Origin: Acidobacteriota bacterium
GTDB lineage: Bacteria > Acidobacteriota > Terriglobia > Bryobacterales > Bryobacteraceae
Direction of reading: 5' to 3'
NCBI GenBank assembly: GCA_021788955.1
Contig: JAJYKC010000188.1
Location: 1 to 5,941 of the forward strand
Length of the DNA stretch: 5,941 nt
In this document: in pieces, positions 3,028-5,941 of the stretch
Position numbering within the stretch: the first letter of the stretch is position 1
Layout of the letters: each line of letters starts with the position of its first letter
Made by a program: the position numbers and the translations under genes
Notes under the pieces: generated by a model
Database searches by the model: none
What the model was told of the DNA's origin: nothing
Seen by the model: the letters and a program-made list of their open reading frames with translations, nothing else

Positions 3028-4103
3028 GCTGCTGCGGCTCCTCTCCTCCTACGGGCGGTACAGCGGCGGTAGATTGCGCCCTCTTGCCCCGGGAAAGTAT
3101 CCGTAGGGAAGTTGCTTGAATTTACCCGGATGCTCCGGATCGGGGACGGAAAAAGTACCGTTCTATCTCATGCCGTCGCTGAAGTAAAAGTCGCTCCGGG
3201 AGAGGTTGACCTGGGTCACCTCCGTTACTGGCATCAGCGTCGTCAAGGCGCTGCGCTCAATCGCATCCATGTGATCGCCAATCCGGACCACGAGCGACTG
3301 CAGCGGCTTCCAATCGAGCGGCAGCATATCGGGGTAGCTGGGCTTGAGAGGCTTGCCGGTGCGGCCGTTGTAGGCGTCGATGGCGGGCATCCTGCCGAAT
3401 TCGATCATCGCCCCGGCGCAGGGAACCGTCCGGCAGTCGCCCGTATCTAGAAAATCCATAATGAGGCTGCCGTAGACGATGGTCTTGTTGGTGCGGTTGA
3501 AGAGCGTAACTGTGGTCTGCCGGAGCCAATCGTCACCCGCCTGAAACGGAGCCAAGGGTTGCATGACGGCGGGCCACTTGATCCACAACCCGCACTCGAT
3601 CGTTTTGCCTGCTACCGAGACATTCGTGGTCATCACCGCATCTGGCACCCTGTCCGCTTCCATCATTCGAAGCAGCTTTTCTCCCGGTCTGAGCTGAGCA
3701 GGAGCCGTGACCACAACGACGCCGAGCAGCGCTACGGCGAAGAACCGCAGCAACGGGCGCGTGAAACGCGCCTTTCCAATTCTGAAGGGAATCGTCTCGA
3801 TCTTTCCTCCTGACTGTCCTAGCCCGGACAGGGCGCCGGAAGCCCCGGCGCTCCGCGCCACACGCGGATAAGCAGTGGCGTCCAGCGCTTCTCTCTCTTT
3901 GTCACTCGTCAGTTTTCCAACCCAGGTCCGCTTGACAACGCCGTCCTGGTCGACCTGAAGCAGGGTCGGCGTCCCCGCCGCCCCAGTCTTCCCGACGGGT
4001 GCCCGCCGCACGTCGTCGAACTGCAGGCCCTCGCCGCTCAGGTACCGCTCCGACTCCGCGACCGGCTGCGGAAATACGGCCAGGACTTTCACGTTACTAC
4101 CGG
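2971..4103 (-). repeat. Left copy of a tandem duplicated cassette (1838-base period)
   Basis: This stretch aligns with 4809-5941 at a constant offset of 1838 bases: exported-protein stops 3049/4887, lost/kept start 3795/5633, lost/kept stop 3811/5649, cysteine-rich starts 3027/4865. No net insertion or deletion is needed across about 1.1 kb. By eye the exported-protein part is about 80% identical at protein level, while the far right end (4005-4103) is identical base for base. Similarity fades left of about 2960. Confidence 0.9.
3049..3795 (-). pseudogene. Left copy of the exported protein: start lost, amber stop inside
   Basis: This is the counterpart of the intact gene at 4887-5633. Three point changes distinguish it. 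The upstream gene's TAA is TCA (3811-3813), the ATG is ACG (3793-3795), and the Trp codon of the DGM(K/R)WNGTF motif is TAG (3163-3165). Beyond that TAG the frame stays open and homologous for 37 codons to its own TAG at 3049, so the tail was coding until recently. The GGAGG ribosome binding site (3806-3810) is still present ten bases before the ACG. Most nucleotide differences that I checked between the copies are silent or conservative, so the copies diverged while both were useful and the lesions look late. ACG or the downstream TTG at Leu140 of the fused frame could initiate weakly. Confidence 0.75.
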
Positions 4104-4170
4104 CCTTTTCTCTTAATCGCCGAAAGAACGGAGCGCTTTCCGTACAAAAGTGGCAACGTGTGGAAAGCAC
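3163..4170 (-). CDS. Read-through fusion of thioredoxin-like domain and exported protein
   Basis: This is a continuous frame of 335 codons from a GTG at 4170. The frame is in fact open from 4230, and the GTG lies inside the first visible beta strand (GWTLVLVLST), so it is unlikely to be a natural start. Residues 1-119 are a thioredoxin fold: redox motif CHFC at 6-9 (4144-4155), the strand VKVLAVFP, and the cis-Pro loop AAGTPTLLQVD with Pro near 68. Ser120 replaces the stop kept in the right copy, and residues 120-126 (SGGKIET) translate the old intergenic region. From 127 onward comes the exported protein with its hydrophobic signal region (about 139-159), now internal, so any product would carry a membrane segment in mid-chain. 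It ends at a premature TAG. It could be a new fusion or a decaying copy; I favour decay. Confidence 0.6.
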   Translation of the reverse strand: MLSTRCHFCTESAPFFRRLREKAGSNVKVLAVFPQPVAESERYLSGEGLQFDDVRRAPVGKTGAAGTPTLLQVDQDGVVKRTWVGKLTSDKEREALDATAYPRVARSAGASGALSGLGQSGGKIETIPFRIGKARFTRPLLRFFAVALLGVVVVTAPAQLRPGEKLLRMMEADRVPDAVMTTNVSVAGKTIECGLWIKWPAVMQPLAPFQAGDDWLRQTTVTLFNRTNKTIVYGSLIMDFLDTGDCRTVPCAGAMIEFGRMPAIDAYNGRTGKPLKPSYPDMLPLDWKPLQSLVVRIGDHMDAIERSALTTLMPVTEVTQVNLSRSDFYFSDGMR

Positions 4171-4295: not shown

Positions 4296-4865
4296 TCACT
4301 GGCAGTAACCCCCGAAACACGCGTAGCTGCAGCAATCGGAATCAACCGAGCAATAATCGCCGGACAGACCACAGACCGGCCCACACGTGTTCGAGTCCGA
4401 GTTGCAAAATTCGCTGCAGCAATCCGTGTCGTAATAGCAGGAACTTCCATCCTGGAGACACTGGCCACAACTGTTATTCGATAGGCAGACGAGATCGTCG
4501 CGGCATATACCCTGATTACACGGGGAGCCCTCAGGGAGGCAGCAGTCGGCCGCGTCGTCAACTGCCTGGTTGAAAAACGTCGTGCCGCAATAACCATTCG
4601 GGTTGGGGCCAGGACAGCTTACGGATGTTCCGCAATCCTCGCTATTCTCCACTATGGTCTGCATGCCAGGTCCATTCACAAAGCCATCCGTGACATTTTG
4701 TTGGTAGGTCCCAACGGAGCAGCCGGTGTCGCAGGGATTTTCGTCCTGCCTGTCGTAGGCGTTGCATTCAATTATTTGCGCGTGAACGGCCGGCACGGGC
4801 CTCATGCACCACCACGCGCACGTAGAGAGGACAGCGATGGTGAATAATCTCACCACTGGTCTCAT
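4296..4865 (-). CDS. Secreted cysteine-rich protein with knottin-like repeats
   Basis: A 189-residue protein starting at ATG with AGGAG (4876-4880) ten bases upstream. The N-terminus is a signal peptide: positive start MRPVVR, hydrophobic LFTIAVLSTCAWW, and a likely signal peptidase I cut after VHA at residue 29. The mature chain of about 160 residues holds 24 cysteines, an even number that would allow 12 disulphides, and is rich in Asp, Asn, Ser and Gly. Cys pairs occur at 108-109, 149-150 and 178-179. The last third contains repeated C-x6-C units, two of which have the full cystine-knot spacing. The pattern resembles proteins annotated as Dickkopf N-terminal cysteine-rich domain in bacteria, which I cannot confirm without a profile search. 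It starts 21 bases after the exported-protein stop, so the two are likely one transcript. Its function is unknown; adhesin, secreted inhibitor/effector or structural surface protein are all possible. Confidence 0.85.
   Translation of the reverse strand: MRPVVRLFTIAVLSTCAWWCMRPVPAVHAQIIECNAYDRQDENPCDTGCSVGTYQQNVTDGFVNGPGMQTIVENSEDCGTSVSCPGPNPNGYCGTTFFNQAVDDAADCCLPEGSPCNQGICRDDLVCLSNNSCGQCLQDGSSCYYDTDCCSEFCNSDSNTCGPVCGLSGDYCSVDSDCCSYACFGGYCQ
4302..4373 (-). repeat. Knottin-like cysteine motif, second unit
   Basis: Residues 165-188 of the cysteine-rich protein have the spacing C-x6-C-x5-C-C-x3-C-x4-C with the inner sequence VDSDCCSYAC. This is the framework of inhibitor-cystine-knot peptides. 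The unit ends one residue before the protein's end. Confidence 0.7.
4383..4460 (-). repeat. Knottin-like cysteine motif, first unit
   Basis: Residues 136-161 have the spacing C-x6-C-x5-C-C-x3-C-x6-C with the inner sequence YDTDCCSEFC, parallel to the following unit. A looser relative without the central CC pair precedes it at residues 109-133 (C-x6-C-x4-C-x5-C-x5-C), which suggests expansion by internal duplication. Confidence 0.7.
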
Positions 4866-4886
4866 GACGACGCGACTCCTGTTCCT

Positions 4887-5633
4887 TTACGGGTTGTATC
4901 CCGGCGGCAGGTTGTGCTCTCTCGCGCCGGGAAAGTATCTGTACGGAAGTTCCTTGAATTTACCTGGATGCTCCCTATCGGGCAGCGAAAACGTGCCGTT
5001 CCACTTCATGCCGTCGTTAAAGAAAATGACGCCCCGGGAGAGGTTGACTTGCGTGACCTCTGTCACCGGCATCAACTTCGATAGGTAACTGCGTTCGATG
5101 TCGTCCATGTGGTCGCCGATCCGAACCACGAGCGGTTGGAGGGGCTTCCAATCGAGCGGGGCCATCTCCGGATGGTTGGGCTTGTAAGGCTTGCCCGTCC
5201 GCGCGTCGTAGGCATCCACCACGGGGATCTGCCCGAACTCGATCGTCGCGCCGGCGCAGGGAGCCGTCCGGCAGTCGCCCGTATCTGGAAAATGCATAAT
5301 TAGGCTGCCATAGACGATCGTCTTATTGGTGCGGTTGAAAACGGTAACCGTCGTCTGGCGAAGCCAGTCGTCTCCGGCCTGAAATGGGGCCACGGGCTGT
5401 AAGACCGCGTGAGGCTTGATCCACAGCCCGCACTCAATTGTCCTGCCTGCCACCGAAACATTCGTGGTCATGACCGCGTCCGGGATCCTGTCCGCCTCCA
5501 TCATGCGAAGTAACTTTTCTCCCGGTGCAAGCTGAGCAAGAGCCGCGACTATAACGACGCCGGGCATCGCTACGGCGAAGCACGGCAGCAAGAGGCGCGT
5601 GAAAAGCGCCGTTCCAATTCTGAAGGGAATCAT
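4887..5633 (-). CDS. Exported protein of unknown function, intact copy
   Basis: A 248-residue protein starting at ATG, with a strong GGAGG (5644-5648) ten bases upstream and right after the thioredoxin stop. A signal peptide is visible: Arg5 and Arg13, then the hydrophobic LLLPCFAVAMPGVVIVAALA, with a probable cut after ALA at residue 33. The mature part has three cysteines (68, 121, 126) and strongly kept stretches between the two copies: PDAVMTTNVSVAG, IECGLWIK, APFQAGDDWLRQTTVT, FNRTNKTIVYGSLIM, PLDWKPLQ, VVRIGDHMD, PVTEVTQVNLSR and DGM(K/R)WNGTFS. The pattern suggests a beta-rich domain. It reminds me of an unnamed acidobacterial family ending in a DGMRW..-.-VPDP-HPG motif, but I can give no function. 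It sits between a redox protein and a cysteine-rich secreted protein with short gaps (15 and 21 bases), which points to one operon and shared action outside the cytoplasm. Confidence 0.85.
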   Translation of the reverse strand: MIPFRIGTALFTRLLLPCFAVAMPGVVIVAALAQLAPGEKLLRMMEADRIPDAVMTTNVSVAGRTIECGLWIKPHAVLQPVAPFQAGDDWLRQTTVTVFNRTNKTIVYGSLIMHFPDTGDCRTAPCAGATIEFGQIPVVDAYDARTGKPYKPNHPEMAPLDWKPLQPLVVRIGDHMDDIERSYLSKLMPVTEVTQVNLSRGVIFFNDGMKWNGTFSLPDREHPGKFKELPYRYFPGAREHNLPPGYNP

Positions 5634-5648
5634 GTCGATCCTTCCTCC

Positions 5649-5941
5649 TTACTGTCCTACCCCGGACAGGGCTCCTGAAGTCCCGGTGCTCCGCGCCACG
5701 CGCGGATAAGCAATGGCGTTCCGCGCTTCCCTCTCTTTGTGACTCGTCAGTTTTCCAACCCAAGTCCGTCTGACCACACCGTCGTGATCGACCAGGAGCA
5801 GGGTCGGCGTCCCCGCCGCCCTAGTCTTCCCGACGGGCGCCTGCCGCACGTCGTCGAACTGCAGGCCCTCGCCGCTCAGGTACCGCTCCGACTCCGCGAC
5901 CGGCTGCGGAAATACGGCCAGGACTTTCACGTTACTACCGG
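5649..5941 (-). CDS. Thioredoxin-fold protein, C-terminal part (5' end outside window)
   Basis: The frame is open to the window edge. The GTG at 5928-5930 is an internal Val, because GSN precedes it exactly as in the left copy. The visible 97 residues include the strand VKVLAVFPQP, a helix PVAESERYLSGEG, the cis-Pro loop AAGTPTLLLVD (Pro codon 5805-5807) and the last strand GVVRRTWVGKL, all of thioredoxin/TlpA type. By alignment with the left copy the CHFC redox pair should lie about 40-50 bases beyond the window. Proteins of this type usually sit on the outer face of the cytoplasmic membrane and exchange disulphides. The gene ends in TAA, followed by the next gene's ribosome binding site after no gap, so the pair is probably co-translated. 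I cannot tell whether it oxidises or reduces its partners. Confidence 0.8.
   Translation of the reverse strand, partial: GSNVKVLAVFPQPVAESERYLSGEGLQFDDVRQAPVGKTRAAGTPTLLLVDHDGVVRRTWVGKLTSHKEREARNAIAYPRVARSTGTSGALSGVGQ

Follow-up and report, generated by a model that had tools for sequence, protein, structure and literature searches.

Here, we report a conserved gene set in soil Acidobacteria in which an anchored thioredoxin-like protein (TRX) and an exported protein (EXP) probably build the many disulfide bonds of a third, cysteine-rich secreted protein (CYS). We consider it fairly likely that this Acidobacteriota module is a dedicated periplasmic disulfide-maturation system for variable cysteine-rich proteins, with EXP as an accessory partner of TRX. 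What we observed is a gene set with a conserved order, TRX genes associated with cysteine-rich, secreted-looking ORFs, a TRX-EXP fusion, and the knottin spacing of CYS. In the proposed mechanism, a single N-terminal helix would anchor TRX in the inner membrane and leave its thioredoxin domain and C-x-[F/Y]-C site on the outer side; EXP, a beta-sandwich protein that is exported, would stand next to TRX as a partner that binds the client or acts as a chaperone, in one branch of the TRX family; and CYS would be the client sent out of the cytoplasm, made up of successive knottin-like repeats whose many disulfides would need a private oxidoreductase. We infer that TRX acts chemically on CYS, oxidizing or isomerizing rather than reducing it, that EXP has a binding role, and that the three genes are co-expressed.

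The window, i.e., the whole stretch of 5,941 nucleotides that was analyzed, carries CYS, EXP, and TRX as three minus-strand genes with intergenic gaps of 15 and 21 bases (Table 1), just as the original prediction had described them. Each gene had also been given its own ribosome binding site, which is right for EXP (AGGAGG) and CYS (AGGAG), whereas only the last 96 codons of TRX are in the window; this gene begins beyond the window end, where its ribosome binding site and CxxC also lie. On the plus strand, the remaining window has, by eye, the 3' part of a gene for valyl-tRNA synthetase and a gene for an alpha/beta hydrolase, and in addition a small ParE-like pair. This pair (2421-2872, +) consists of overlapping small ORFs of 66 and 84 aa, a candidate toxin-antitoxin pair adjoining the point where the second CYS copy (CYS') is lost; the second ORF scores 22.9 bits against ParE_like, just below the cut-off of 24.4. 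No match to the PADLOC anti-phage defense profiles was found at E ≤ 0.1 for TRX (taken from L001, see below), EXP, CYS, or the long CYS of locus L062.

Table 1. Features of the gene set and of its second copy in the window.
Feature	Position	Strand	Remark
TRX, C-terminal part of membrane-anchored thioredoxin-like gene	5649..5941	-	cut at window end
EXP, exported 248-aa protein, predicted immunoglobulin-like beta-sandwich	4887..5633	-	
CYS, secreted cysteine-rich protein, 189 aa, 24 cysteines past apparent signal peptide	4296..4865	-	
Knottin-spaced motif 1 of CYS, residues 136-161	4383..4460	-	
Knottin-spaced motif 2 of CYS, residues 165-188; weak alignment with omega-atracotoxin 1hvw	4302..4373	-	
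AGGAGG ahead of EXP start codon	5644..5649	-	sequence
AGGAG ahead of CYS start codon	4876..4880	-	sequence
Second copy, decayed: anchorless TRX' in frame with EXP', EXP' end missing	3163..4170	-	
CYS' remnant, first 21 codons	2961..3027	-	

A near-identical locus (L001, MAG WY3.bin84) shares 96% DNA identity with the window over 2981 bases. Comparison of copy 1, the trio of the window, with L001 gave 10 non-synonymous and 9 synonymous changes in EXP (dN/dS 0.34), 6 and 9 in CYS (dN/dS 0.18), and 13 and 10 in the partial TRX (dN/dS 0.49); few as they are, these changes fit purifying selection. The module was also said to have been duplicated as a whole, and this is true of its past, the two copies aligning at 82.7% over 1143 bases, but not of its present state: copy 2 has lost the TRX anchor, the stop between TRX' and EXP' (now one frame), the end of EXP', and nearly all of CYS'. 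The second copy of L001 has EXP' whole and CYS' broken over two frames. Comparable damage was seen at L002, L014, L059, L063, L070, and L071; part of it may be assembly error in metagenome bins and, if real, it would indicate rapid gain and loss. Local duplication and decay are thus real, and they are what would be expected of chance neighbors, i.e., unrelated genes carried along together. We regard such an explanation as very improbable, because the trio recurs in diverged genomes (e.g., L003, with an EXP identity of 30%) in the same order TRX-EXP-CYS at 13 of 14 loci (in the exception, L078, TRX is on the opposite strand), and because, for the family, both the neighbor statistics of TRX and the EXP table below speak against it.

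The thioredoxin fold assigned to the first gene, for which the window has neither start nor CxxC, is borne out by the full TRX gene of L001 (1974-2609), which encodes a hydrophobic N-terminal helix and a CHFC site. Against Redoxin (PF08534), the full-length L001 protein scores 27.7 bits, above the cut-off of 26.6; TRX of two of the three relatives tested missed this cut-off, and the profile search with the partial TRX of the window gave no PF08534 match. Redoxin gives the best score, and the dsbE and ResA models match weakly (TlpA/ResA-like). C98 and C101 are invariant in an alignment of 15 sequences. The active site, readable by script at 26 of 27 TRX loci, is CRFC at six, CHFC at six, CRYC at five, and others at nine, i.e., mostly C-x-[F/Y]-C. 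TRX therefore resembles the anchored thioredoxins of the Redoxin or TlpA-DsbE-ResA type in its membrane anchor, thioredoxin fold, CxxC, and TP motif at the cis-proline place, but differs from them in its tie to cysteine-rich neighbors and in its mostly C-x-[F/Y]-C site, the active site of that group being CxPC. The CGYC and CPYC sites of the isomerases DsbC and DsbG resemble C-x-[F/Y]-C, which is a lead only for the activity of TRX; a DsbC/DsbG-type N-terminal dimerization domain was not found in TRX, the alignments showing by eye only the hydrophobic helix and a short linker before the thioredoxin domain.

CYS had been described as a knottin-like secreted protein with 24 cysteines, and our analysis agrees as regards the cysteines and their spacing. 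It has 26 cysteines in total, 24 of them past an apparent signal peptide (ending ...VHA before Q30, a cleavage site read by eye), within ~160 mature residues. The mature protein contains two motifs C-x6-C-x5-CC-x3-C-x4-6-C, the spacing of the inhibitor cystine knot, and none of 20,000 shuffles of it (0/20,000) contained two knottin-spaced motifs. A single-sequence search with CYS matched eight database proteins. The structural model reaches a pLDDT of ~86-91 over residues 131-189, and Foldseek ranked spider knottins first with this model (best probability 0.99 but E 0.34, the others higher); matches to the Pfam conotoxin families were below cut-off, and a PDB profile search gave one weak knottin match. 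CYS is like the knottin (inhibitor cystine knot) peptides in its cysteine spacing and unlike them in being bacterial, in having at least two repeats per protein, and in being encoded with its own TRX. Please note that close homologues have cysteines at residues 48 and 122, where CYS of the window has G and R; the loss of these two may reflect early decay of the locus or one jointly lost disulfide, and because of it the window locus may be degrading.

TRX could instead keep CYS or another envelope protein reduced, with the cysteines of CYS binding metal or buffering redox and EXP being an unrelated envelope protein. TlpA- and ResA-like proteins are often reductases, and the Redoxin, dsbE, and ResA scores of TRX are in line with such a role, as is the cysteine-rich protein of L078, which matches a MopE copper-binding motif just above the cut-off (27.5 vs 27 bits). 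We nevertheless consider this unlikely: the knottin spacing of CYS suggests disulfides, the TRX sites are mostly C-x-[F/Y]-C at the 26 loci, and the fusion of TRX with EXP, described next, speaks against an unrelated EXP.

In locus L205 (2365-3660, -), one ORF of 431 aa consists of TRX (CHFC) followed by EXP (E 3e-42 and 2e-39), with a single hydrophobic N-terminal segment and, by eye, no inner (second) signal peptide. A 13-cysteine ORF lies directly downstream, its first ATG 19 bases past the fusion stop. The fusion, which is one case in one genome, places EXP and TRX on the same side of the membrane, presumably the periplasm, and suggests that EXP is a partner working with TRX in the periplasm and not a receptor. 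Together with the recurrence of the trio, in the same order, in diverged genomes, it supports the view of the original prediction that the three genes form one unit.

EXP itself was expected to be an exported protein of no known family. Its N-terminus is signal-like by eye, a lipobox was not seen, and searches of Pfam and NCBIfam gave no match at E ≤ 1; the protein database yielded 35 matching proteins, all of them lacking Pfam domains. The structural model is a beta-sandwich (pLDDT 84.3, pTM 0.78) with no clear relative among solved structures. The EXP profile (A5) matched in at least 13 of 396 phylum genomes, in at least 9 of 150 genomes within one family, and in 5 of 40 within one order, the sets overlapping. 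Where genome counts are given here and below as lower bounds, the scan scored no more than a fixed number of candidates per genome, between 7 and 22, so that some members may have been overlooked. We searched the flanks of EXP, including L001, L003, L004, and L014, for TRX, CYS, and cysteine-rich frames, using flanks of 1.5 kb for ten weak matches. Both a CxxC-containing TRX and a cysteine-rich gene were found beside EXP at 14 acidobacterial loci and neither at 18 EXP-like loci (p 2.1e-09; 9.3e-08 with L002, L070, and L071 counted against the module). These three loci were left out of the table, as were the first copy of L063, L038 (which shares its contig with L034), the second copies in L001 and L014, and a further EXP piece in L014. 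L003 and L004 are rows of the EXP profile itself. Among the 14 module loci, CYS is frame-broken in L059 and L061 and cut by the contig end in L063, and TRX of L060 is interrupted by unknown bases. The 18 partnerless loci, 10 of them seen with 1.5-kb flanks, are mostly weak matches; they include L076, an EXP remnant, and L022, whose 16-cysteine opposite-strand frame we treated as spurious. L004, L064, L068, and L073 score like some module members, i.e., EXP-like proteins also occur alone. In L068 (4629-8372, -), an EXP-like domain ends a 1247-codon frame, and TRX and CYS are absent nearby. The CYS profile gave at least six matches in 150 genomes, five in modules and one a 67-codon fragment elsewhere; this profile is insensitive, since it failed to pick up L059-L062, whose cysteine-rich genes belong to that family but have diverged. 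On the point raised with the original prediction, whether homologues usually stand apart from one another, the counts are thus 14 loci with both partners and 18 with neither for EXP (four of the latter high-scoring), and for CYS five of six matches in modules by this insensitive profile.

The association extends beyond EXP. Searches with the TRX profile (A6) at E 1e-25 matched in at least 15 of 396, at least 11 of 150, and 8 of 40 genomes, and at 1e-40 in at least 15 of 299 (overlapping sets), giving at least 50 distinct loci. Each locus, of at most ~3.6 kb, was tested for an ORF with at least 10 Cys, at least 7% Cys, and a secreted look by our own crude signal-peptide rule. Such an ORF was present at 27 of 50 TRX loci. 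The rows of the TRX profile are module members in 14 of 15 cases (in the remaining one, the L014 second copy, CYS is broken), so we counted separately the loci outside the profile-building and EXP-derived sets, where 17 of 32 have such a neighbor; by eye, all 17 resemble real exported proteins. The controls, drawn from 14 genomes of the phylum sample, gave 1/30 loci each for the thioredoxin-fold sets redoxin, PF13905, and PF13098 and 2/100 for random 3.6-kb windows. For 17 of 32, Fisher p is 9e-6 in comparison with any one of the three thioredoxin-fold sets and 7e-11 in comparison with the random windows. The earlier suggestion that TRX serves a cysteine-rich product is therefore backed by statistics. 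Of the 23 loci that failed the automatic test, L059, L060, L062, L075, L201, and L202 show a cysteine-rich frame in a wider view, and no convincing one was found beside TRX in L100, L105, L107, L110, L177, and L183. At the six TRX loci that were new in the scans of 40 and 299 genomes, the wider view revealed an ORF of 10-31 cysteines adjoining TRX or just past EXP in all six, although the ORF of L202 has less than 7% Cys, that of L201 is broken over two frames, and L203 has a split TRX.

The cysteine-rich neighbors are diverse: those of L204 and L206 are small (77-94 codons), and by eye those of L102, L103, and L108 look alike, together with a frame at L112 that lacks a readable start. The neighbors in L178 (2206-2595) and L188 (2056-2451) are Gly/Cys-rich frames of ~130 codons with 19-20 cysteines beside the TRX gene. 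Since the neighbors differ so widely, TRX appears as the constant part and the supposed client as the variable part, i.e., judged from the sequences the client is strongly lineage-variable while TRX is retained. Most TRX-cysteine-rich pairs are without EXP, and EXP is therefore not essential to them.

Several relatives of CYS carry a further domain. A homologue of the FrpC self-processing module is found at the C-terminus of the cysteine-rich protein in L060, L061, L062, L070, L075, L078, L099, L201, and L202. The calls for L060, L062, L070, L075, and L078 are based on mutual alignment, those for L099, L201, and L202 on the resulting profile, and that for L061 on reading by eye; the C-terminal domain of L070 matches PDB 6sjx and 6sjw with E 2e-17 and 8e-17. 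CYS of the window is a short form that ends in the second knottin motif, and the PDB profile search found no self-processing module in it. FrpC is cut at an Asp-Pro bond (PMC7078468); among six domains examined, those of L060, L061, and L062 keep Asp-Pro at the domain start, and those of L070, L075, and L078 have it replaced. In that source, the module is called exclusive to a subset of RTX proteins, whereas the carriers here are rich in cysteine and look unlike RTX proteins; its occurrence on such proteins is thus shown here.

The lipoprotein FrpD is a binding partner of FrpC (PMC5233953). With this binding as a precedent, and with the FrpC-like module on related CYS proteins, EXP and CYS might form a secreted or surface pair, an adhesin or antagonist with its binding protein, and TRX would serve both. 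This seems improbable to us, given that EXP in L205 is fused behind TRX and a membrane anchor, that it has no visible lipobox, and that CYS of the window lacks the module. We return to the maturation system, of which a broader version can be put forward only tentatively: Acidobacteriota may have a widespread folding system in which anchored TRX, with or without an EXP beta-sandwich subunit, makes many unrelated multi-disulfide secreted proteins, including poly-knottins and cysteine-rich proteins that perhaps cut and cross-link themselves via the FrpC-like calcium-dependent module.

Disulfide systems tied to particular substrates are known already. MauD/MauE act in the maturation of the methylamine dehydrogenase small subunit, a thioredoxin-like protein being encoded beside a disulfide-rich periplasmic client; the TRX-EXP module differs in its partner proteins and in its client, which is a variable cysteine-rich protein and not a conserved enzyme. 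DsbL/DsbI with AssT in uropathogenic E. coli and Salmonella is likewise an extra disulfide system tied to particular substrates, AssT being called a native DsbL substrate (PMC6067686). There, a DsbA homologue (DsbL) is paired with DsbI, whereas here an anchored redoxin-type TRX and a beta-sandwich EXP go with strongly varying clients. In the open-access literature, searched mainly by listings, we found no description of the TRX-EXP-CYS composition, of the breadth of the association, or of the fusion, in line with the original statement that no system of such composition had been described; these features are apparently new.

The gene set gives uncharacterized Acidobacteriota families a testable joint role and offers a rule by which further secreted proteins rich in cysteine can be sought, i.e., to search beside the TRX family. 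If the folding role is true, the TRX-EXP pair could help make knottin-type proteins in bacteria, and the widespread folding system, if true, would correspond, in bacteria, to the dedicated machinery for venom-type cysteine-rich peptides.
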